IMG/VR virus record: IMGVR_UViG_3300012207_000003
Coordinates: 1 to 64,000 of that record
Direction: 5' to 3' (one strand)
Source: a virus
DNA length: 64,000 bases
Shown: piece after piece, positions 3,116 through 63,334 of the stretch
How the letters are laid out: the number at the start of each line of letters is the position of its first letter
Numbering within the stretch: position 1 is the first letter of the stretch
Position numbers and translations under genes: made by a program
The notes under the pieces: generated by a model
Told to the model about the DNA's origin: nothing
The model's input: the letters and a program-made list of their open reading frames with translations, nothing else
The model's database searches: none

Positions 3116-4758
3116 TGGAAATAGAACTCCGTCCGTATCAAACCGAAAGTATCAATAGAATACTAGCTTCTTATGAACAGAATAAGCACAGTTCAGAGCT
3201 TTTAGTACTTCCAACAGGCAGTGGAAAAACGGTGATTTTTTCACAAATCATTCACCATCTATCAGAAAAATACGGCGTGAATGCGCTTGTGATTGCACAT
3301 AGAGACGAGATTTTAGATCAATCGGCTGACAAGTATCGTATGGTGAAACCTGATGCAATCATAGGCAAAGTTGGAAGTGGAATACATGAGTATGGTGGTG
3401 AAGTAACAGTAGCCTCAATTCAAACCATTAGCCGGCCCGAACACTTGAAACGCTTACAATCAATCGGATATGGGCTAGTTATCACCGATGAAGCACATCA
3501 CTCACAAGCTGAAAGCTATCAAAAAGTCTATGAAGTATTGCCAGATGCATTTCATTTATTAGTTACTGCTAGCCCAGATCGCTTAGATGGAAAGCCCCTG
3601 CTTGATGGCAAGAAACCACTTTACGAGGCAAGCATTATTGACCTGGCTACACACGAACCGGCGTATTTATGTGACATGCGGGCTATCCCCATTCAAACCA
3701 ATCTTAGTCTTGATGGAATACATACACAAGCTGGAGATTTCAAGATTGACGAATTGGAAGCGGCTGTTGATACCGCCGAGCGCAACCAGCTTATTGTGCA
3801 GAAATATCAACAGTATGCATCAGGTAGGAGAGCGGCGTGTTTTGCGGTCACAGTTGAACATGCAGAGCACATCACAGAAGCATTTAACGATGCTGGCATA
3901 GCTTCCGGCGTGGTAGTTGGTACTACTCCACTACCTGAACGCAAGAAACTCTACAAGGCATTTAGAGATGGTTCAGTGAGGGTACTTACTACCGTCAACG
4001 TGTTGAGTGAGGGTTGGGATGAACCACTCTGTGATTGCATTATTATGGCACGTCCGACACAGTCACGTGCTCTTTTCGTGCAAGCGATTGGAAGAGGGTT
4101 ACGGCTAGCTCCTGGCAAACAAGATTGCATCATCCTTGACATTACTGATAACTGCCTCAAGCACAGATTAGAACCGCAAAACTTGCGTAAGATCCTCGGA
4201 AAGCATCTCAACGATGAAGAAAGCTTGTTAGAAGCACTCGCAAGAGAAAAGTCAGAAGTAACGGTAAGTGTCCATCAGGAACGCAAGCTTAAAGAGCAGA
4301 GAAACAAAGATATTGAACTGAACTTGCTTGTCAAGCTTGACTGGCTACAAGAGCGGAACGGTATGTTTGTGCTAACAGTTGGAAGCGCAAAACACCGTAT
4401 AGCGTTAGTGCCAGATGCATATGGAGAGATGTACTCCGTTTGGGCCAGGCTCTCCCCATTTTATGAGCCTCAATTATGGCTAGAAAACGCTCCGTTGGAT
4501 TGGTGTCAGTCGTTCGCAGAGAAACGCGCTAGATTGCTTTTGAGTGATGCAAAGAATGCAGTGCTTATTGACAGAAATGCTTCCTGGCGTTCACTCCCCG
4601 CTAAGGATACACAACTTGAACGATTAGAACGTTGGGCGCATCGCTTCAATTGGTCATACAATCCTCAGACTATCACGCGTGGGGAAGCTTCAGATTTGAT
4701 TGATTATGCGCTAGGGCAATTTGAGCAGTGGAGAAATAGAAAGCAGAAAGTATCATGA
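3115..4758 (+). CDS. SF2 DEAH helicase (type III restriction/SSL2-like)
   Basis: A 547-residue superfamily 2 helicase. Start is the GTG at 3115, seven bases after AAGGAG; an in-frame GTG at 3097 lacks a site. Q motif RPYQTE at residues 6-11, Walker A LPTGSGKT at 32-39, DEAH at 125-128, and motif VI QAIGRGLRLAPGK from residue 323. Residues about 380-547 form a C-terminal extension without a recognised domain. Such phage helicases melt or remodel DNA in replication or recombination. It begins a set of four genes linked by 4-base ATGA overlaps that also includes an SNF2-like helicase and a DNA methyltransferase. Confidence 0.9.
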   Translation: MEIELRPYQTESINRILASYEQNKHSSELLVLPTGSGKTVIFSQIIHHLSEKYGVNALVIAHRDEILDQSADKYRMVKPDAIIGKVGSGIHEYGGEVTVASIQTISRPEHLKRLQSIGYGLVITDEAHHSQAESYQKVYEVLPDAFHLLVTASPDRLDGKPLLDGKKPLYEASIIDLATHEPAYLCDMRAIPIQTNLSLDGIHTQAGDFKIDELEAAVDTAERNQLIVQKYQQYASGRRAACFAVTVEHAEHITEAFNDAGIASGVVVGTTPLPERKKLYKAFRDGSVRVLTTVNVLSEGWDEPLCDCIIMARPTQSRALFVQAIGRGLRLAPGKQDCIILDITDNCLKHRLEPQNLRKILGKHLNDEESLLEALAREKSEVTVSVHQERKLKEQRNKDIELNLLVKLDWLQERNGMFVLTVGSAKHRIALVPDAYGEMYSVWARLSPFYEPQLWLENAPLDWCQSFAEKRARLLLSDAKNAVLIDRNASWRSLPAKDTQLERLERWAHRFNWSYNPQTITRGEASDLIDYALGQFEQWRNRKQKVS

Positions 4759-5081
4759 ACGAACAAATACCCTTTTATAACATCGAAACCTCCAAATTGG
4801 TTATCGAATTGAAACCAAGAATAAGACACGATTATGAACCCCTGCACTGTGCTCATGTTGCTTTAGATAAGCATGGAGAGCCAAGAGCCTGTAGAGTTGA
4901 TGGTTTTGAAGATCACTATGAATGTGCAATTTGCGGAGCGCTCTACTGCAATCAACATATCTCAGAACACACTCTGAATGTCGCACAAGGCAATGATTTA
5001 GCAATTTGCCTTGCTTGCTCAAAACTCAACAAAGATACAAGAATGGCTATTCGAGCGTTCAGATTGGAAATAAACCGATGA
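4755..5081 (+). CDS. zinc-binding protein between two helicases
   Basis: A 108-residue protein with a cross-brace-like cysteine/histidine pattern: ECAICGALYCNQH, then CLAC near residue 90, with an earlier Cys-x-His pair. This gives at least two possible zinc sites, similar in layout to small RING/B-box-like or zinc-ribbon folds. The function is unknown. It is joined by ATGA overlaps to the helicase before it (4755-4758) and the helicase after it (5078-5081), which suggests a stoichiometric partner. Confidence 0.75.
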   Translation: MNEQIPFYNIETSKLVIELKPRIRHDYEPLHCAHVALDKHGEPRACRVDGFEDHYECAICGALYCNQHISEHTLNVAQGNDLAICLACSKLNKDTRMAIRAFRLEINR

Positions 5082-6466
5082 GAGATTATCAAGACTTCTT
5101 AAAAGAAAAAAAGGTCATAGCTCAAACATCAGGCATTGATGTATCGCTTGACCAAATACACCCCCTGCTTTTTCCTTTTCAGAGGACGCTTGTGCAATGG
5201 GCTTTGAGGAAAGGACGGGCGGCATTATTCGAGGATTGCGGATTAGGAAAGACATTGCAGCAATTGGAATGGGCCAGATTAACAGGGCAAAAAACGTTGA
5301 TCTTAGCTCCGTTAGCTGTAGCACAACAAACCGTAGCAGAGGGCTTGAAGATAGGCGTTGAAGTCCATTATACCCGCTCTGGTTCTAATACTATTCCAGG
5401 TATCAACATCACGAATTATGAGATGTTAGAACACTTCAACCCAGAGGACTTTGGAGCGGTTGTGCTAGATGAAAGCTCTATCCTGAAATCGTACATGGGC
5501 AAAACTAAGATAGCTTTAGTCAATGCTTTTAAGAGAACGCCTTTTCGGTTGTGCTGTACAGCGACGCCAGCTCCTAATGATGTGATGGAGATAGGAAACC
5601 ATAGCGAATTTCTAGGCATTATGCCTAGCAACGAAATGTTAATGCGGTGGTTTATCAACGATACCATGCAAAATGGTCACTACAGGTTGAAAGGACACGC
5701 CACTAAGGATTTTTGGGACTGGGTAGCATCATGGGCTATTAGCCTACAAAAACCGTCTGATATCGGCTTTAGTGATTCCGGTTTCGTGTTGCCAGAACTG
5801 AGAATACAACATCATTCAGTTGAAGTTGATACATCTGTAGGGCAAAATGAGGGGGAATTGTTCAGGATGCCTACTATGAGCGCGACGACGCTACATAAAG
5901 AGATGCGCTTGACGGTAGGGGATAGAGCGGCGTGTGTTGCTGAGATGGTCAACAATTCAAGCGAGATATGGGCTGTTTGGTGCAATACAAATTATGAAGC
6001 GGATGCACTGAAAAGGCTCATTCCTGATGCTATTGAGGTACGTGGCTCCAATACGATTGCAGAAAAAGAACGTGCTTTGATGGACTTTTCCTCTGGAAAA
6101 ACAAGAGTCATTATCTGTAAAAGTGTGATGTTTGGATTTGGGCTAAATTGGCAGCATTGCCATAATACTGCTTTCATAGGACTTTCTTACAGTTTCGAGG
6201 CATTTTATCAGGCAGTGAGACGCTTATATAGGTTTGGACAAGATAAGCCTGTACAGTGTCATATCATAGCCGCTGAAACGGAAGGTGCTATGGTTGCAAC
6301 GCTTGAGAGGAAGATACACGCGCATATGCAGATGTCAGAACAGATGAATGCCAGTGTAGCCAAATTAAGACTACAAGAAAATTTAAACCTTACTCAGTAC
6401 AATCCGCAAATACCGATGATTGTACCTGAGTGGCTACACTCAGAAGACGAAACAAAATCAGCATGA
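5078..6466 (+). CDS. SNF2-like SF2 helicase
   Basis: A 462-residue helicase. The frame is open upstream, but the ATG at 5078 overlaps the previous stop as ATGA and is the likely start. Walker A is EDCGLGKT at residues 52-59, the DEAD-box equivalent is LDESS at 130-134, and the C-terminal lobe has VMFGFGLNWQ and QAVRRLYRFGQ. The last resembles the SNF2 motif VI (QxxxRxxRxGQ). SNF2 proteins translocate on double-stranded DNA. In phages they sit beside methyltransferases in replication modules; in bacteria, in defence systems such as DISARM. Confidence 0.9.
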   Translation: MRDYQDFLKEKKVIAQTSGIDVSLDQIHPLLFPFQRTLVQWALRKGRAALFEDCGLGKTLQQLEWARLTGQKTLILAPLAVAQQTVAEGLKIGVEVHYTRSGSNTIPGINITNYEMLEHFNPEDFGAVVLDESSILKSYMGKTKIALVNAFKRTPFRLCCTATPAPNDVMEIGNHSEFLGIMPSNEMLMRWFINDTMQNGHYRLKGHATKDFWDWVASWAISLQKPSDIGFSDSGFVLPELRIQHHSVEVDTSVGQNEGELFRMPTMSATTLHKEMRLTVGDRAACVAEMVNNSSEIWAVWCNTNYEADALKRLIPDAIEVRGSNTIAEKERALMDFSSGKTRVIICKSVMFGFGLNWQHCHNTAFIGLSYSFEAFYQAVRRLYRFGQDKPVQCHIIAAETEGAMVATLERKIHAHMQMSEQMNASVAKLRLQENLNLTQYNPQIPMIVPEWLHSEDETKSA

Positions 6467-10629: not shown

Positions 10630-10820
10630 ATATAGAGGAATGCCAGCATACTCATACCATAGAAAAAGAGGGTGAAACCTGGAATGATACAATGGGCAAA
10701 ACTCATACCATAATCTATACTAAATGCTCGTATTGCTCTAAAACCATTCGTGTGAGGCAAACAGGAAGCGATTTGCCGCGCGTGTATATGCCTCCATTTC
10801 CATTTGGCATAAAGCCATAA
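10626..10820 (+). CDS. small zinc-knuckle protein
   Basis: A 64-residue protein with His-Thr-His near the start and a CSYCSK pair at about residues 36-39, a likely single zinc site. I recognise no family. The start at 10626 gives an ATGA overlap with the previous stop and eight bases from AAAGGA; an ATG at 10617 is too close to that site. Its TAA overlaps the primase ATG by one base. Confidence 0.7.
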   Translation: MNIEECQHTHTIEKEGETWNDTMGKTHTIIYTKCSYCSKTIRVRQTGSDLPRVYMPPFPFGIKP

Positions 10821-12148
10821 TGACAACACAATCCCCTGCTCTCAACACTCTCATAGATATCCATGCGTTCTATAGCCGTTATTCCAACATAGTAGGCAAA
10901 CCTACCAATTCATCGCGTGACGGTAAGGAGTATCACGGTTCATGTCCTAAATGTGGGGGAAATGATAGATTCGTATTTTGGGAGTCAGGGCGGTTTAGTT
11001 GTTCTATCCGGTCTAGCGGTTGTGGCATTTCTGGCAGTAGTCCTTACTGGTATCTCAGGGACATAGAGGGATTGTCTCACAGAAACGCTTGTGAAGATTT
11101 AGGGATAGACCTAGATCAATTTGAAGAATGGCAAGAACAACAAAGAAACGTGTTACCACTTTTCATGACCTCCGACCAGGAACCATGCAAGAAGTGGATG
11201 GATGCTGCATCAGCATTTGTGTATAGAGCTGAAAGATATCTATGGAGTGACAAAGGTACAAAGGCTTTAGAATATTTGCATGGCAGGGGCTTAACCAATG
11301 AAACTATCAGATATGCGAAGTTGGGTTTTTGTCCTGGCTGGTATCACGAACAATTAGAGAACTGGGGACTTACATCTATACAGACGTTGGAAGAGACAGA
11401 AATTAAAATTCCCCCTGGCATAACGATTCCCTGGATCGTTGAAAATAAGATATGGAAAATCAGTGTCAAGCGTTTTGAAGATGTTGAAAAAGGGTACTTT
11501 CAGGTAGTAGGGTCTAGTGACGCGTTGTATACTATAGATACCTCACAAGGGTATGATACCCCCTGCATGTTGTTAGAATCTGAGTTTGATGCATTATCAG
11601 TTCAGCAAGAAGCGGGGGATATCATTGCAAGTGTAGCAACCGGAGGAACTAGCAAAGGGCAATCTCTGAGATGGATAAATCAATTAAAACAAGTTCCTGG
11701 AATCTTGATAGGGTTTGATGCAGATGAAGCTGGCAATGCCGGATCTGCCAATTGGTTGAAGAAAATACCTGATGCTCTCAGATGGCAACCCTGGGCGCAT
11801 GATGCTAACCAGATGTTGCAAGATAATACGCCAGTAAGGACATGGGTAGAAATGGGACTGAGAGCATTACACACGCAGATAGAAGAGCCTGTACAGCCCC
11901 CTGCTTTGTTGCCAGTGACACCTATTCCCTTGCCCTTGAAAGCAACTTGTGAAACCGATGTTAGAAAACCTACTGATAATATAAGCAAGAAAAGAACACT
12001 AGACCCCTGGATTAAACTGAATGATGCTGGTTTACCTGAATTTTGCTCAACTCCTATCTGTCGCAATCGCTCGATTGCGTGGAGGTCAAATAGTGAAATG
12101 ATGCAAGCGTATTGTGAGAAGCATAAACCTGCTCAGTTTGGATGGTAA
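10820..12148 (+). CDS. DnaG-type DNA primase (zinc finger plus TOPRIM)
   Basis: A 442-residue primase. The N-terminal CHC2-like zinc finger has Cys42, Cys45, Cys61 and Cys68 in SCPKCGGNDRF and GRFSC contexts. The TOPRIM domain shows LLESEFDAL with catalytic Glu253 and GFDADEAGNAG with Asp300 and Asp302. A second cysteine cluster (CSTPICRN and YCEKH) near residues 400-435 forms a C-terminal zinc element. The enzyme makes RNA primers for lagging-strand synthesis, and would work with the DUF3987-like ATPase upstream. Confidence 0.92.
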   Translation: MTTQSPALNTLIDIHAFYSRYSNIVGKPTNSSRDGKEYHGSCPKCGGNDRFVFWESGRFSCSIRSSGCGISGSSPYWYLRDIEGLSHRNACEDLGIDLDQFEEWQEQQRNVLPLFMTSDQEPCKKWMDAASAFVYRAERYLWSDKGTKALEYLHGRGLTNETIRYAKLGFCPGWYHEQLENWGLTSIQTLEETEIKIPPGITIPWIVENKIWKISVKRFEDVEKGYFQVVGSSDALYTIDTSQGYDTPCMLLESEFDALSVQQEAGDIIASVATGGTSKGQSLRWINQLKQVPGILIGFDADEAGNAGSANWLKKIPDALRWQPWAHDANQMLQDNTPVRTWVEMGLRALHTQIEEPVQPPALLPVTPIPLPLKATCETDVRKPTDNISKKRTLDPWIKLNDAGLPEFCSTPICRNRSIAWRSNSEMMQAYCEKHKPAQFGW

Positions 12149-18306: not shown

Positions 18307-18417
18307 CTATCCTTTCAAATGCACACATGGCGATGAGATAGGAACAAAGCCACATAAGCCACAAAAATACTCATTTTCATGGTCACGTTTTCTAAGCCAA
18401 TTCCAGAACTTTTTCAT
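18307..18417 (-). CDS. 36-residue zinc-ribbon-like peptide
   Basis: A very short gene: MKKFWNWLRK, then FCGLCG and CVH, giving one possible zinc site. Support comes from an AAGGA site seven bases before the ATG and from an exact ATGA overlap with the stop of the membrane-HTH gene at 18414. The size is below most gene finders' limits. Confidence 0.6.
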   Translation of the reverse strand: MKKFWNWLRKRDHENEYFCGLCGFVPISSPCVHLKG

Positions 18418-19310
18418 GAAATTTTCCTTTCCTGATCCTGAACGAACAACAGAGCGGGGGGTTGTATGGAGTATCCTGGTTTAATTTTGAGAGTAGAAAT
18501 CTTCAACTTATCACCTTTTACATTTGCCTCAATTTCCCCTGCTTTCAATTGTTGTTTAAGCGTTGAAATTGCGTAGCCTGTGATGTGCGCAGCTTCCTCA
18601 AAAGTGACAAGATATTTTTGCGGACGAGTGACTTGTGAAGCCATATCAAGGCTTGAAAAACCGATTTCGTTTGTGAGTTCTTCCATCTCAAAACCAGGAG
18701 AGATTTCAGGAAGATTTTCCTCTGGTTTTTGCTTCAATTCTTGCCGCAGTTTTGGCTCCTGAAATGCTGCTTTTGCCACTTCTTTTATGTCAGAAATGGA
18801 GGTCAGAATTGAGTGCTTTTTGAGATCAGATTTGCGCACTTTTTCTGTTAATTTTGCCTCTGTTTCATCGTTGCGTTGCTTCAATTCCTCGGCTGATTCT
18901 GACTTAGAATTAAAGAGTTCCGCGACAATTGAATAGGCCAGATTTAAGAATGCAAAGGCACTTGCAAGTATCGGATTGAGCCAGTAGAAATCTGCGGCAC
19001 GGTTCAAATCTTGACTTTGGAATTGTGTTGCGTATTCCCAATTGACAATCCAGGAAAAGGCTGTAAGTCCCAAGATAAAAAGCCAGATACCTGCTAATGC
19101 CCATCCTGACATGCCTTTTCTAAAAAACATAATGCCGATAGTCAGAATCAAAGCAGTGACATCAATGCTGATAGCTAACGCATAAGAACCTGTCCAATCA
19201 GTATATGCAGGCTCAAAACTGTGGAAGAAATAGGCGATATGGCGCAAGGATGCATACAAAAATGCGCCATATGCGAAAATGAATACAACTCGGATAATAC
19301 TACGAAACAT
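18414..19310 (-). CDS. four-helix membrane protein with C-terminal HTH (DUF2637-like)
   Basis: A 298-residue protein. Four hydrophobic helices at roughly residues 5-25, 42-62, 69-90 and 108-130 resemble the DUF2637 family of actinobacterial plasmids and integrative elements. A charged linker and coiled coil follow (135-215). Residues about 228-275 contain an excisionase-like HTH (VTFEEAAHITGYAISTLKQQ). A membrane protein that carries its own DNA-binding domain could tether the element to the membrane. It is next to a HerA/FtsK-like ATPase, as DUF2637 genes often are. Confidence 0.7.
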   Translation of the reverse strand: MFRSIIRVVFIFAYGAFLYASLRHIAYFFHSFEPAYTDWTGSYALAISIDVTALILTIGIMFFRKGMSGWALAGIWLFILGLTAFSWIVNWEYATQFQSQDLNRAADFYWLNPILASAFAFLNLAYSIVAELFNSKSESAEELKQRNDETEAKLTEKVRKSDLKKHSILTSISDIKEVAKAAFQEPKLRQELKQKPEENLPEISPGFEMEELTNEIGFSSLDMASQVTRPQKYLVTFEEAAHITGYAISTLKQQLKAGEIEANVKGDKLKISTLKIKPGYSIQPPALLFVQDQERKIS

Positions 19311-19315
19311 ACCTA

Positions 19316-19483
19316 CTAGTCCCCTTTCCCTAAATATCTTTTCTTACGCTTATCATAATTAGAATCGACACCTGTATGCTCATCATGACGCATACGCAAT
19401 AGGAGTGAGATACGGCCAAACCACCAACCGATAAAAGTGCCTACAATACCACCACAGATAAAAGCAAACTCAAATTCTGGCAT
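19316..19483 (-). CDS. 55-residue single-span membrane protein
   Basis: One transmembrane segment with glycine zipper (FICGGIVGTFIGWWFG), then an Arg/Lys-rich cytoplasmic tail. The ATG at 19483 overlaps the TAA of the ATPase gene by one base and follows GGAGGG. It lies between the ATPase and the membrane-HTH genes, so probably belongs to the same complex. Confidence 0.7.
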   Translation of the reverse strand: MPEFEFAFICGGIVGTFIGWWFGRISLLLRMRHDEHTGVDSNYDKRKKRYLGKGD

Positions 19484-20940
19484 TATAAACCCTCCTCGTC
19501 TAAAACCTGTTTGATAATCTTGAATTGCTCTCCACTAAAGTGCATGGCATCTCGAATTTCAGTACGATTGAATCCTTGCTTGCGAAGTCTGATGATCTCA
19601 TTTCTGATTTCTAGTGCTACTGGTATGCTACGCTCAACTGAATCAACGATAGAAATTTCTGGCATATCATACTGAAATGGCTCTATGTCTGGTTTCACGC
19701 CATTTCTGAAATCATCAGAAATGTTTCTGATTTCTTCCTGATTTCTGAAATTTCCAGAAATGTTTCTGGAAAACAACAGGCGTATATCATCGGTTGTTGT
19801 ATCTGGAATTGCGACGATTTCAGGTTTGCGGTTTGAGGTTGCAAGCACTGCTTTTCCTGGCCCTGCGTTCTCTAAAATTGCCATCATGGACTTTGCTATA
19901 TCGTTTTCAAGTCCAGCCATTCTTGCCTGTTGTGGTGAGGTACAAAACACATAGCGGCTTGCCATTGCATCACGAACGAGCGTACCACCCAAGATGGAAG
20001 CGGGTACTCCTTGCCCTGATATCAAGGCAAACATACCAACTTTCCGACCTTCTAAGACAATACGGCGTATTGCTGGCAGTGCTTCCACAGCCATACTTGC
20101 AATAATTGGCATTTCATCGACTAATAAAAGAACAGGTTTAAAATGCGTTTGCCCCGCACGTCTGGCGCGTAACCTTTTTGTGAGATGTGCATCTAAACTG
20201 TGTGCATAGTCAATGATATCGCGTGGAGATTCGGCACATTCAAAGCTACTGCCAAGATCATCTAAGATAGATCCGTGAGGGTCAAATATAATCGGTTTGC
20301 CTCCAATTAATAGCACTTGACCGCATACATCACGTAGGAGCGTTGATTTGCCGGTACCAGGCCGTCCTACATCAAGTGTCGAAAGTAGATCAGTGATATC
20401 CCCCCATATAGGGCCTTGTGTGCCCTGCGCTAAGAAAAGGTGTCCTGGCCTGATTTGAGAGACAACAGAGCTAAATGGCGGGGCTATAGGCAAGGCGGGG
20501 GGTAGTAACTCTTGCTCGGCATGCCCCCAGTTTAGCTCTTTAATAGTTGTATTGGAGGCATTAGCCGCTAATGCAGCTTGTGGATGGATGATATTCATTT
20601 CGCTTCCATCAGCATATTTGACTTGCACAGAACAGCCTTGAAGCAACGCAAGACTAACGGTATCTCTTCTGTGCGTGCTGTCTTTGTGCTGATGCCTCAC
20701 GCTGATGTGATGCAAGCCATGCAGATGTACGGCTTTGCCTGCTTTCCAGGTGATAGGTAGCCCGACACATATACCTATCATCGCTGCGAGTGGCATACCC
20801 CAGCTATACCAGTTCAAGAGAATAAGAGAAAACAAACAAAAGAGAATCAGAAAAACCATAGCGCCTAAACCCAGCCATGTTTCAATTGGTAGTGATGTTC
20901 TGTATTCTCTCTTCTCAGATACAACTCTTTGTTCGTTCAT
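19483..20940 (-). CDS. HerA/FtsK-type DNA-translocase ATPase
   Basis: A 485-residue P-loop ATPase. Two N-terminal transmembrane helices (about residues 24-66), Walker A GRPGTGKST, IIFDPHG after it, and Walker B LLLVDEMP. The sensor-like SGQG motif follows. The C-terminal 40 residues look like a small HTH (RLRKQGFNRTEIRDAM). The family pumps DNA through membranes or septa (TraB, TcpA, FtsK). Phages rarely need one, which suggests plasmid transfer or partition. The ATG at 20940 is preferred to a GTG at 20946 by its distance to GGGG. Confidence 0.85.
   Translation of the reverse strand: MNEQRVVSEKREYRTSLPIETWLGLGAMVFLILFCLFSLILLNWYSWGMPLAAMIGICVGLPITWKAGKAVHLHGLHHISVRHQHKDSTHRRDTVSLALLQGCSVQVKYADGSEMNIIHPQAALAANASNTTIKELNWGHAEQELLPPALPIAPPFSSVVSQIRPGHLFLAQGTQGPIWGDITDLLSTLDVGRPGTGKSTLLRDVCGQVLLIGGKPIIFDPHGSILDDLGSSFECAESPRDIIDYAHSLDAHLTKRLRARRAGQTHFKPVLLLVDEMPIIASMAVEALPAIRRIVLEGRKVGMFALISGQGVPASILGGTLVRDAMASRYVFCTSPQQARMAGLENDIAKSMMAILENAGPGKAVLATSNRKPEIVAIPDTTTDDIRLLFSRNISGNFRNQEEIRNISDDFRNGVKPDIEPFQYDMPEISIVDSVERSIPVALEIRNEIIRLRKQGFNRTEIRDAMHFSGEQFKIIKQVLDEEGL
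19715..19770. repeat. in-gene palindromes in ATPase gene
   Basis: Two inverted repeats, TCAGAAA-2-TTTCTGA (19715-19730) and TCCAGAAA-2-TTTCTGGA (19753-19770), centred 39 bp apart. Further TTTCTGA half-sites lie at 19703 and 19742. They encode the repeated peptide RNIS[GD][ND]FRN of the ATPase linker. Confidence 0.75.
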
Positions 20941-21008
20941 ACTCACACATCCCCGTTTCCAGTTCGTTCTACTAGTGACGCTCTGTTAATCAATCCTACG
21001 GAGTGTTT

Positions 21009-22048: not shown

Positions 22049-22073
22049 CCTTTCCGAAATGTAGAACTACACA

Positions 22074-22301
22074 TCAGAGAATTTTCAATCCATCCAGATC
22101 ACCTACGTAAATATCTCGCTTCATGGCTTTGCTGAGTGCTTCTACAATCTTGAGTGCCGTTCGGCTAGAGCATTCATCCTGAAATATGGCTTTACTGGCC
22201 GTTCGCCAGGTGATTCTTGCTTCCCTGGCAAGCTTGGAAACATTCCAACCGAGATATTGACAATAATCCTGGAGCGTCACGAGATTATCTTCCTGATACA
22301 T
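22074..22301 (-). CDS. XRE/Cro-type helix-turn-helix regulator
   Basis: A 75-residue protein; the ATG at 22301 follows AAGAGG. The HTH is LQDYCQYLGWNVSKLAREAR, then ITWRTASKAIF as the recognition helix, as in phage Cro/CI-type and plasmid-maintenance regulators. It stands at the head of the minus operon, facing the 22.3-22.8 kb control region, and is the best candidate for a switch regulator. Confidence 0.8.
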   Translation of the reverse strand: MYQEDNLVTLQDYCQYLGWNVSKLAREARITWRTASKAIFQDECSSRTALKIVEALSKAMKRDIYVGDLDGLKIL

Positions 22302-22341: not shown

Positions 22342-22370
22342 AGAATACCTAACAAATACAGAAAAAGCAA
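22342..22370 (-). promoter_or_regulatory. promoter for XRE-regulator operon
   Basis: On the minus strand TTGCTT (22370-22365), 17-base spacer, TATTCT (22347-22342), about 40 bases before the ATG at 22301. Confidence 0.55.
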
Positions 22371-22458
22371 GCAAACAGGCGTAAAAGAGGCAATTCAGGA
22401 AGATAAAAACAAACGTAAACGAAGTGTAGTAAACGTAGATAAAACGTTGAAAACAAAA

Positions 22459-22529
22459 ATCTACACTTCAATGAGCTTGAAAGGTTCAGCTTCTAAGCAC
22501 GAATGATAGGAAGTGTCGAAATGTAGACG
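22459..22529 (+). repeat. 71-bp composite element, left copy
   Basis: Four blocks of 11, 7, 11 and 20 bases (ATCTACACTTC; GCTTGAA; AGCTTCTAAGC; and 22510-22529) separated by 5, 6 and 11 bases. The same four blocks with the same spacer lengths but different spacer sequence occur in reverse orientation at 24247-24317. The outer blocks also pair with each other (CACTTC/GAAGTG). Confidence 0.85.
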
Positions 22530-22653
22530 CGTTTTGAACAAAGTTTTTTGAAAACCAGGATGGTTTGAGATACTTTTTGAAAGTTGTACACATTCTCAGA
22601 TAGTTTTCAACATTTCTGTGAATAAGTCCTATCTGGCGATGTGGAGATGAAAA

Positions 22654-22681
22654 AAAACGAATAATTACGAATTTTTGAAAA
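22654..22681. promoter_or_regulatory. 28-bp element shared with 59291
   Basis: Matches the reverse complement of 59291-59318 at 26 of 28 positions, centred on ACGAATAATTACGA. It lies 26 bases before the -35 of the 22707 promoter, in a position for an activator or repressor. Confidence 0.75.
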
Positions 22682-22706
22682 TTGCGAAAATTCATCTTGA
22701 AAATGC

Positions 22707-22735
22707 TTGACAATCAAGTTTGAATATGTTAACAT
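22707..22735 (+). promoter_or_regulatory. sigma-70 promoter for 22781 operon, with dyads
   Basis: TTGACA at 22707-22712, 17-base spacer, TAACAT at 22730-22735. CTTGA-3-TCAAG (22706-22718) covers the -35 and TTGAAT...ATTCAA (22720-22739) covers the -10, so operators overlap both boxes. Confidence 0.75.
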
Positions 22736-22780
22736 TCAAGTGTACCAAGAAAGTACAAAAGAAACAAAGGAGAAAACAAG

Positions 22781-23131
22781 ATGTATAGTCAGAATTTCAA
22801 ACCAGTTGCCTACCGTCGCAATGAGATCGAGGACATGAAGTCCTTCACCGAGATGGAGCAAGCACAATTCGAGCAAGAGCGCAACGAGCAGGACGCTCAT
22901 AACAACGCCAATACGCTCGTCTGGACACTCAGCAATGGGCAAGAAGTTCGCGTTCGTCCAGTCTATGACGATCATTTTGATTGCATCATGTACGCCGTCA
23001 AAATCGGCAATGCCGAGTATAGGAATTATGATCTTGAGTTAGTTCGCAATGTTCCTGGCGTCGTTGCAAAAGTCGGGCCAGTTGGCCTGACAGCAGAGCG
23101 CAAAAGCGCATTAGAGAAAATGGAGACATAA
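22781..23131 (+). CDS. hypothetical protein of control-region operon
   Basis: A 116-residue protein with a charged helical first half (residues 10-45, Glu/Gln rich) and a beta-type second half ending in a short helix. No family recognised. AAAGGAG lies before the ATG. Codon use is more GC-rich than in neighbouring genes. The stop overlaps the next start by one base. Confidence 0.65.
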   Translation: MYSQNFKPVAYRRNEIEDMKSFTEMEQAQFEQERNEQDAHNNANTLVWTLSNGQEVRVRPVYDDHFDCIMYAVKIGNAEYRNYDLELVRNVPGVVAKVGPVGLTAERKSALEKMET

Positions 23132-23478
23132 TGGAAAAGCAAGATGTTTTCGTTATATCCTCTCAAAAGGATATGGAAGCATTCAAGAAGTGGGGAGGCA
23201 AGCGTCAGGGCGCAGGTCGCCCGCATGAACACCAGGAATATCTCCTAGTTGAAGTCGTCGATTTCTACGGCGACAAGGACACGCTCATAGCAGGCATGGT
23301 TGGCAGTCGTGGCGTAGAAGCAAGAGCGCAAAGCATCGCTACCCATCATGTCAATGAGCAAGCGCTATCAGTCAAAATTGTAAAGCGTCTGTGTTGCTCC
23401 CATGGCGAGAGCGCACTAGTCGAAATCATAAAGCATGAGCAAGCAGCTATTGATATTCGCGAAGAATTGAAAAAGTAA
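23131..23478 (+). CDS. small protein with GGxRxGAGRP basic motif
   Basis: A 115-residue protein. KWGGKRQGAGRP at residues 21-32 is the basic motif found at the start of many phage and plasmid DNA-binding proteins. The rest is mixed alpha/beta with two adjacent cysteines in KRLCCSHGE. It lies between the two inverted 71-bp elements and is a candidate to bind them, which is an inference. One-base overlap with the previous gene. Confidence 0.65.
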   Translation: MEKQDVFVISSQKDMEAFKKWGGKRQGAGRPHEHQEYLLVEVVDFYGDKDTLIAGMVGSRGVEARAQSIATHHVNEQALSVKIVKRLCCSHGESALVEIIKHEQAAIDIREELKK

Positions 23479-23524
23479 CAGCCTCGCACAACAAGGTAGC
23501 CCGAAAGGGCGGAAAGGCACAAAA

Positions 23525-23770
23525 ATGGCAAATGTTAATATCCAGGGGGACGACCTGGATAATGTTTCGACAAAAATTGAAATCTCCTCGCTTGAGGAAC
23601 TAGGCAATCTTCTGGCAGCAATGCCAGAGGGTACAACGGCGAATGTGCTTGGCGGTGATTTGGACGCGGGCAATTTCGAGGTTGCCCATCTCGAAACACC
23701 AATTGGCAGTAGCATTGGCATTTTGTATTCTGGCCCTGTCGCGGAGGGCTATCAAAGCCCATTCGAGTAA
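23525..23770 (+). CDS. acidic hypothetical protein
   Basis: An 81-residue acidic protein, Gly/Asp rich, no Cys. GGAAAGG lies before the ATG, and a small GCCC/GGGC hairpin lies in the gap before it. It is the last gene of the operon and is followed by a terminator at 23800. Confidence 0.6.
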   Translation: MANVNIQGDDLDNVSTKIEISSLEELGNLLAAMPEGTTANVLGGDLDAGNFEVAHLETPIGSSIGILYSGPVAEGYQSPFE

Positions 23771-23799
23771 GCCCCTCGCTACAATCCAGCCAGCGCATG

Positions 23800-23836
23800 A
23801 CCTCTAAGAGAGCAATGTCTTAGAGGTTCTTTTTTA
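23800..23836 (+). terminator. rho-independent terminator
   Basis: Ten-base stem (23800-23809 with 23818-23827), eight-base loop, then TTCTTTTTTATTT. Ends the 22781-23770 operon. Confidence 0.9.
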
Positions 23837-24246
23837 TTTCTAGGCAGGGGTACAGTAGGGAGGCTATTTCATATAGACATAAAACTATTGTTCAGTTCAT
23901 GTGTATACAGTATTTATCTCTATATTATATGTTGAATGAAAAAATAAACTATGGGGGTATCTTAGTATCTAGTACTATATACTATAACACAGTATAGCAA
24001 TAGTACAAAAGTACTAGTATCATTTTAACCCCTGCTTAGTGAGAAGAGAACTATTAAAAATAAACTGAACAATAACACCTATCTGGAAATCTGATACTAG
24101 CCCCTGCTTTGTGGATACTCATATTTGTTACCAGGATTGAAATTCTGATGTGCTTCAGGTTCCAGGTGAGTGATAGATCATCTCAGTTAGATTTTTTAAT
24201 CCTGGCATCACAAAGAGGGCATTTTCAAAAAACTTTGCTAGAATCA

Positions 24247-24317
24247 CGTCTACATTTCGACACTTCATACTCTTTGAGCTTAGAAGCTCTACTATTCAAG
24301 CATAAGGAAGTGTAGAT
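24247..24317 (-). repeat. 71-bp composite element, right copy
   Basis: Inverse-oriented copy of 22459-22529. All 49 block positions are identical and the three spacers have identical length but diverged sequence. Total length is 71 bp in both. Confidence 0.85.
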
Positions 24318-24327
24318 TTTACTTTCG

Positions 24328-24364
24328 ACACTTCGTCAACACTTCTACACTTCCTTTACACTTG
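24328..24364 (+). repeat. iteron-like ACACTTC cluster
   Basis: ACACTTC at 24328-24334, 24339-24345 and 24347-24353, followed by a variant TACACTTG at 24357-24364. The same heptamer is in both outer blocks of the 71-bp elements. Confidence 0.7.
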
Positions 24365-24488
24365 CTTTTCATCCTCCAGACACGGTATACTTCAAGCAGT
24401 CCTTCATACTCGTACTTCGGGAAATAGGCGGTTTTTAGCAAAGAAGAGTTTTCAAAGTAGTATCCTTTCCCCACTTTGAAAGCTCTTC

Positions 24489-24517
24489 TTGTTTTTTTAC
24501 ACAAGAAACGGTATATT
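24489..24517 (+). promoter_or_regulatory. probable late promoter before terminase genes
   Basis: TTGTTT at 24489-24494, 17-base spacer, TATATT at 24512-24517. A TTCTTGT/ACAAGAA dyad overlaps the -35 (24486-24507), and AGTATTC/GAATACT (24525-24546) follows the start point. Confidence 0.55.
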
Positions 24518-62318: not shown

Positions 62319-63188
62319 TTATTTCTCCAGTACTTTCCTGAGTTTCCTCATAGCTACTTCTTCAATTTGGCGCACACGTTCACGCGTGACACCAAGTTCC
62401 CTGGCTATCTCTTGTAACACGTGCGCACGGCCATCTGCGCCTATGCCAAATCTCAACTTGATAACGTGTTGCTCACGTTCTGTTAAGCAAGCAAGAGCTT
62501 TTTTGACACGTTCGGATATTTCATCTTGTTCAACATCTATCTCGGCGGTTGCTTTTTCGTCTGCAATCAGATCACCTAGGCACACATCTTCATGGTCAGC
62601 TACAGGCACGTCCAATGAAAGCATATAATACATGTGTTGCCAGATCAAGACTATCTCTCCTGGTTTTTCCCCTGCTATCTCAGCTAATTCTTCTAATCCA
62701 GGTTCATAGCCATATTGCATAGTGAAGTTGGTAAAATGCCTCTTCAGTCTATTCCGTTTCTCAACGCTATAGCAAGGGATGTGAATCATATATTCTAATC
62801 CTGGTAACGCTCTGGTGATCGCTTGCCGAATCCAGCCTGTAGCATAGGTTGAGAACTTGTATCCGAGTCGCCAATTAAAGGTTTGGGTAGCTCGCATAAG
62901 CCCTATATTCCCCTCCTGTATCAAGTCGTGCAGGGAAATATCACCTCTTTGATAATATCTGGCTACTGAAATCACAAGGCGGAGATTGGATTGTATCAGA
63001 GTTGTTCTAGCTGACTCGTTCCCCTGCTCGATTCTCTGCATCAAATCAATCTCTTCCTGTTTACTGAGCAGGGGGTATTGACGTACCTGTTCAATATACC
63101 AGGCCATATCATCAGTTAATTCAAAGCTTCTCTGTGCTGCAAAGATGCCTTGACGCTGCATAGGACGTGTTTGTGGAACTGCTACCAT
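62319..63188 (-). CDS. phage-encoded sigma-70 family factor (group 2-like)
   Basis: A 289-residue sigma factor. ATG at 63188, ten bases after AAGGAGG. Region 1.2 (MAWYIEQVRQYPLLSKQEE), region 2 core with LIQSNLRLVISVARYY and DLIQEGNIGLMRA, 2.4 YKFSTYATGWIRQAITRA, region 3, and region 4 with LTEREQHVIKLRFG and GVTRERVRQIE. All parts needed for -10 and -35 contact are present. It could redirect host RNA polymerase to phage late genes or be a captured host gene. Confidence 0.93.
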   Translation of the reverse strand: MVAVPQTRPMQRQGIFAAQRSFELTDDMAWYIEQVRQYPLLSKQEEIDLMQRIEQGNESARTTLIQSNLRLVISVARYYQRGDISLHDLIQEGNIGLMRATQTFNWRLGYKFSTYATGWIRQAITRALPGLEYMIHIPCYSVEKRNRLKRHFTNFTMQYGYEPGLEELAEIAGEKPGEIVLIWQHMYYMLSLDVPVADHEDVCLGDLIADEKATAEIDVEQDEISERVKKALACLTEREQHVIKLRFGIGADGRAHVLQEIARELGVTRERVRQIEEVAMRKLRKVLEK

Positions 63189-63334
63189 CTCTGTTACTCC
63201 TCCTTTTATTTCCACTTTTCGAGTACTGCGGTAGAATAGTTCTATAGTACCTTGAAAACAGAATAGTGCTTGTCGGTTCCAGGGTAATTCGGTTCCCTGG
63301 GTAAAAACACTACCGTGTCAACCAATGTACATCT
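63189..63334. other. sigma gene upstream region, hairpin only
   Basis: GGTTCCAGGG and CCCTGGG-type arms (63275-63302) form a hairpin. I see no convincing promoter or gene. Confidence 0.35.

Follow-up and report, generated by a model that had tools for sequence, protein, structure and literature searches.

The window (the whole stretch of 64,000 nucleotides analysed here) covers nearly all of an IMG/VR record of 64,162 bases, the ends of which overlap by 123 bases, and the phage genome is therefore circular, with a size of about 64.04 kb. The gene set on the right, beyond 24.6 kb, starts with the genes for the small and large terminase subunits and the portal protein. To the left of 22.3 kb the genes run leftward, and they include those for a P-loop ATPase of the HerA/TrwB type (19483-20946) and for a membrane protein (18414-19310) that has about four spans and ends in an HTH. 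The P-loop of this ATPase resembles those of TrwB/HerA weakly (E 0.004), and the structure prediction for the protein reached a pLDDT of 41. A small gene on the minus strand (22074-22301) codes for an HTH-like protein of 75 amino acids, for which no significant match was obtained in Pfam or PHROG. Primase-like genes are located at 8-12 kb, and the phage encodes a sigma-70 factor (62319-63215) comprising regions 1.2 to 4.

At the divide between the leftward and the terminase-side gene sets sits a pair of inverted elements. When positions 22459-22529 were compared with the reverse complement of 24247-24317, 57 of 71 positions were identical; the four blocks of 11, 7, 11 and 20 nt agree at all 49 positions, and the spacers of 5, 6 and 11 nt agree at 8 of 22, as many as chance would give (P = 0.22). 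When the 4-kb region was Markov-shuffled 12 times, the best inverted 71-mer had 40 identities, as compared to 58 in the real sequence. The coordinates and the block-and-spacer layout of the two 71-bp elements had been given exactly in the preliminary description, but the pair actually measures about 160 bp, as self-blastn paired 22396-22555 with 24381-24223 over 161 nt (76% identity, E = 1.5e-26), and beyond the 71 bp it includes an additional inward common block (CAAAGTTTTTTGAAAA) and more outward half-sites. Element L (22396-22555, plus strand) is composed of a half-site array, a dyad core and the inward block, and element R (24223-24381, minus strand) is the inverted copy with a denser outer array containing the 19-bp tandem units AAGTGTAAAGGAAGTGTAG and AAGTGTTGACGAAGTGTCG; both were delimited by self-blastn and by a four-way alignment with the two copies of a related phage, L024 (see below). 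The dyad core of each element has the form TCTACACTTC..GCTTGAA..TTCTAAGC..GAAGTGTCG, and that of L (22459-22529, plus strand) reads TCTACACTTC - GCTTGAA - AGCTTCTAAGC - GAAGTGTCGAAATGTAGACG, the R core (24247-24317) lying on the minus strand. A folded RNA, one of the two explanations first put forward for this architecture, is unsupported because the two 71-bp copies fold into different minimum structures (z = -0.9 and -1.7); an Rfam search gave no match on either element. A DNA similarity search of a phage collection returned no match either.

Each element carries arrays of the half-site AAGTGT(C/A)G at steps of 8 or 11 bp, two 19-bp tandem units being present in R, and over all the spacing is irregular (8-12 bp). 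Allowing at most one mismatch, the motif GAAGTGTMGA was found 17 times in the window versus 5.8 times expected, a number reached in none of 100 shuffles, and the surplus falls within the two elements. Similarly, the top-scoring window sites of a scoring matrix built for the half-site lie almost only inside the elements. The extra half-sites noticed earlier outside the cores are real: GAAGTGTAGT is located to the left of the L core (22421-22430, plus strand), and the outer half-sites of R (24325-24364, minus strand) start at 24325, 24336, 24344 and, weaker, 24355. The scoring matrix also detected a palindromic half-site pair (GAAATGTAGAACTACACATC) at 22056-22075, outside the elements and between two leftward genes.

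The elements bracket three genes on the plus strand (22781-23770), which occupy 22781-23131, 23131-23478 and 23525-23770 and code for proteins of 116, 115 and 81 amino acids. No known family was found for any of the three proteins, and no relatives of the first gene were found in IMG/VR or in phage records. A consensus scan placed a promoter-like site (TTGACA-17-TAACAT) at 22707-22735 on the plus strand, and an intrinsic terminator is located at 23799-23838 on the same strand (fold z -3.6); with the three open reading frames, these features make the proposed three-gene operon plausible. Just outside L, a putative leftward promoter, P1 (TTGCTT-17-TATTCT; 22342-22370, minus strand), was read from the sequence for the operon of the HTH and membrane-ATPase genes, its -35 element being weak. 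A putative late promoter on the plus strand (TTGCTT-18-TATACT; 24362-24391), which was missed by the consensus scan, adjoins the outer end of R, and between it and the gene for the terminase small subunit lies a hairpin with an 18-bp stem and a T-run (24441-24497, plus strand; fold z -4.4).

Two relatives of the phage carry comparable arrangements. In L024, for which positions refer to contig IMGVR_UViG_3300049455_000014 (the reverse complement of locus L024), the ATPase is 73% and the portal 77% identical to those of the window, and the C-terminus of the ATPase is near-identical. Whether the pair is conserved in relatives was examined, and it does recur in L024, at 10769-10900 and 12967-12847, again in the interval that separates the leftward operon from the terminase. 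There, the arrays bracket a tyrosine recombinase (10915-11874; PF00589, E 8e-29) and not a three-gene operon, so that the operon, as described, is the bracketed content in the window but is not a conserved cargo. L028 is a distant relative (portal 43%) whose recombinase is flanked by similar sites, the order being membrane-HTH protein, ATPase, sites, recombinase (4421-5362), sites with AT-rich DNA, and terminase. The membrane ATPase of the HerA/TrwB type and the adjoining multi-span membrane-HTH protein form a pair that is kept in the window (18414-20946), L024 (10001-12355) and L028 (1490-4213), resembles plasmid transfer or segregation modules and is unusual for a tailed phage. The P1 motif GTTTGCTTGCTTTTT has one exact match per phage in the window and in L024, where it lies upstream of the integrase. 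In all three phages the promoter-like sequence TTGCTT-TATACT adjoins the outer end of R and is followed by a terminator-like hairpin. In the window (24366-24515), late promoter-like sequences are arranged in tandem upstream of the terminase small subunit with the 18-bp-stem terminator hairpin between them, an arrangement that L024 and L028 have in equivalent form and that suggests control of the late genes by antitermination.

Two further features of L028 were observed. At 5440-5650, beside the tyrosine recombinase, a tRNA-Met gene is present as two halves that are inverted relative to each other, lie about 200 bp apart and have the 11-bp core AGAGCAGCGGA in common; L029 shows this as well. 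When the segment was inverted on paper, an intact tRNA was recognised by ARAGORN, which suggests that a recombinase produced the inversion at an attachment core in the tRNA. A comparison of this tRNA-Met with 400 Chloroflexota genomes gave one near match, and the relatives there are not close. The second feature is another repeat array, with about 19 copies of TGACGCA(TC) at 1350-2000, mostly in the 3' part of the membrane-HTH gene.

Within IMG/VR, carriers of the system amount to two clear phages (the window phage and L024) and the one distant relative. In pattern scans of IMG/VR with AAGTGTCGAAATGTNNAC and CCCTGCTTAGTGAGAA, the only matches beyond the window and L024 came from L032, L034, L101, L102 and L103, contigs without meaningful similarity to either phage. 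Among the terminase relatives in L006-L020 and L090-L097 that had enough upstream sequence, no inverted pair was found (L090 and L092 were read by eye). A scan of bacterial genomes with the portal gave no match, and the same scan with the terminase gave only relatives, of which the ones inspected have no pair close to the terminase.

The interior of the pair is conserved not in its genes, which are exchanged, but in a stretch of noncoding AT-rich DNA. This AT-rich core (23837-24201) is 68.6% identical to L024 12325-12690 and carries CCCTGCTYWG boxes (at most one mismatch) at 23840 (minus strand), 24030 (plus) and 24102 (plus), as well as the inverted pair TATTGTTCAGTT / AACTGAACAATA. Three CCCTGCT boxes occur in the order minus, plus, plus in the window, in L024 (12328, 12522 and 12592) and in L028 (5840, 5982 and 6079). 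The AT-richest 150 bp of L024 and of L028, and the joint AT-richest 150 bp of the window, lie between the arrays or array sites. In addition, three DnaA-box-like 9-mers are found at 22584-22625 (TTGTACACA and TTTTCAACA on the plus strand, TTATTCACA on the minus strand); they are individually weak and the motif is loose, with 114 single matches in the window, but their spacing is nearly that of L024 (12202 plus, 12222 plus, 12236 minus).

The four elements of the window and L024 can be aligned, and invariant in them are AAGTGTCGAAATGTnnAC, ACACTTC and TGCT..AA (AGCT in one element). Both L024 copies share the motif changes AAGTGTCACA and AAGTGCCGA, and one L024 core copy has about 9 bp more between its inner half-sites, which is near one helical turn. 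The identity between L and R within a phage (74% and 68%) is higher than that between orthologous elements (58% and 55%), and the spacers are random. As the spacers of the two copies are random-like, the copies must be old and not kept alike by gene conversion, and together with the greater likeness of L and R within each phage this fits co-adaptation to one trans-acting protein. Such a pattern fits neither gene conversion nor recent duplication, and its simplest reading is two sites fitting one shared protein that changed between the phages. The multi-contact protein site with fixed spacing that had been suggested as the other explanation of the architecture thus gains support, since the arrays recur in L024 and the two arrays of each phage have changed together.

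Origin iterons, a centromere and an operator pair, all named in the preliminary description, are each possible functions. Our tentative preference, held with somewhat less than even confidence, is that the element pair and the AT-rich interior constitute an iteron-like replication or maintenance origin region. Each element, as a dyad core with flanking half-site arrays at about 10-bp spacing, would be bound by one shared protein, encoded by the phage or by the host; the half-site arrays on both flanks would work as initiator-binding iterons, the AT-rich CCCTGCT-boxed stretch would serve as an unwinding element, and the bound protein could pair the two inverted arrays. The genes between the arrays, three small ones in the window and the integrase in L024, would be passengers. 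In iteron-type origins of plasmids and phage-plasmids, such as RK2, R6K and P1 oriR with incC/incA, arrays of short repeats are likewise accompanied by an AT-rich unwinding-like region; they also come with DnaA boxes, to which the window offers loose near-matches. In P1, a gene stands between two arrays that the initiator brings together. Usual iterons measure 17-22 bp; the half-site steps of the window are by contrast irregular at 8-12 bp and do not form one fixed unit. Moreover, no Rep gene was found beside the elements, the dyad core contains a second half-site type (GCTTGAA) and the interior gene varies. An iteron-type oriV is made up of iterons, DnaA boxes and an A+T-rich unwinding element (PMC6312765). 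In favour of an origin are the occurrence of the same pair in the same place of L024 around a different gene, the likeness of L and R within each phage, the concentration of top-scoring half-sites in the elements, the AT-rich core that is kept while the interior genes are exchanged and, as weak evidence, the matching spacing of the DnaA-like boxes. Against it, no Rep (initiator) family was detected among the neighbouring proteins, and because a Rep gene is missing, which is the main weakness, we have not filed the region as an iteron origin. It also counts against an origin that triplets of DnaA-like boxes are not uncommon at the tolerance used, that the R array adjoins promoter-like sequence in all three phages, that the GC skew of the window merely tracks gene direction, and that the system is present in just two clear phages and one distant phage.

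It is rather unlikely, and yet deserves consideration, that the arrays serve the membrane-anchored ATPase (a HerA/FtsK/TrwB-like P-loop protein with a C-terminal helical domain) and its membrane-HTH partner as a loading site or centromere, in which case they might tether, segregate or translocate phage DNA by analogy with known systems. Analogues would be the clt/TRS sites for TraB and parC for ParR. ParR/parC and TubR/tubC centromeres and TraB clt/TRS sites are arrays with steps of about 10 bp beside a segregation or translocase operon, and in this they resemble the window; however, no par motor was recognised in the window, and there are two inverted dyad elements in place of one array. A literature search on TraB sites and phage-plasmid iterons yielded nothing usable. 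This explanation is favoured because the membrane-ATPase operon constantly accompanies the arrays, the ATPase and the multi-TM protein with C-terminal HTH being encoded beside them in all three phages; the nearly identical ATPase C-termini of the window and L024 and the weak TrwB/HerA likeness of the P-loop agree with it. On the other hand, the HTH types of the partner protein vary among the phages despite a similar half-site, no ParA, ParM or TubZ was found among the proteins scanned, the low pLDDT of the ATPase model speaks against it, and one array would suffice for a centromere.

Similarly doubtful is an operator pair, at which a regulator bound to both arrays would control the leftward P1 as well as the late (terminase) promoter, which points rightward, and might do so by looping out the intervening 1.8 kb. 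Each of the three phages has a promoter-like sequence of the type TTGCTT-N16/18-TATACT directly at the outer end of R, and in the window P1 lies just outside L with the small HTH gene adjacent, all of which would suit such a regulator. In L024, however, the L array is located downstream of the integrase within the leftward unit and P1 is on its other side, and L is therefore not a conserved promoter-operator. Furthermore, a homologue of the small HTH gene was looked for in L024 and none was found, and an operator pair leaves the conserved AT-rich core unexplained.

Quite unlikely, in our judgement, are accessory or arm sites of site-specific recombination, whether as arms of an attP or as parts of a switch that inverts; the integrase would then have been lost in the window phage and kept in L024 and L028. 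Such sites would account for the PF00589 recombinase bracketed by the L024 pair and for the similar sites flanking a related recombinase in L028, near the tRNA-Met split into inverted halves. However, a search of the window phage for tyrosine recombinases found no PF00589 protein, and yet the blocks are perfectly kept there. A crossover site is unsupported, since it would not tolerate the additional distance of about 9 bp that separates the inner half-sites of one L024 copy. In L028 the tRNA core lies outside the arrays, the left array being about 1 kb away from it, and XerC/D-like models cover the recombinases almost from end to end. The suggestion that the elements invert the 1.8-kb segment between them did not hold up well, since the interior core faces the terminase in one and the same orientation in each of the three phages, and the longer L024 core copy and the lack of a tyrosine recombinase in the window phage also speak against it. 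Frequent inversion and a recombination crossover are thus both disfavoured.

The inverted arrays might also mark a fixed locus for gene exchange, in which one cargo gives way to another, such as an integrase to an accessory operon or the reverse, and arrays and AT-rich core stay in place, by a mechanism that would be neither Xer/dif nor transposon; we regard this as very unlikely. In the dif/pdif modules of Acinetobacter plasmids, inversely oriented sites bracket exchangeable genes as they do in the window. The pdif sites have 28 bp in an 11+6+11 layout (PMC6449649). The elements described here have 71-160 bp, and a dif/pdif (XerCD) module was rejected, as there is no 28-bp 11/6/11 layout and the core spacing is not fixed but differs by about 9 bp between copies. 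Finally, it is hardly credible that the elements are the terminal inverted repeats of a transposon or cassette with the operon as its load. Inverted repeats of this length, which hold several binding sites and enclose exchangeable genes, do recall the inverted ends of Tn7/Mu-type transposons, with several protein sites per end, but transposon ends are unsupported here because the interior genes include no transposase and the locus is conserved, with the L024 pair at the same place around a different interior and the AT-rich core inside, while the saturated spacers indicate that the copies are old, and the block was found in the IMG/VR scans only in the window phage and L024, apart from the unrelated contigs.

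If the preferred origin or maintenance reading is true, the region would be the first mapped cis-acting control or origin region for an undescribed phage lineage, and its sharply defined motif might be used as a bait for the binding protein. As the region contains plasmid-like membrane ATPase genes and the integrase has been replaced in one lineage, it may provide a handle on how these phages choose between integration and other ways of persistence.
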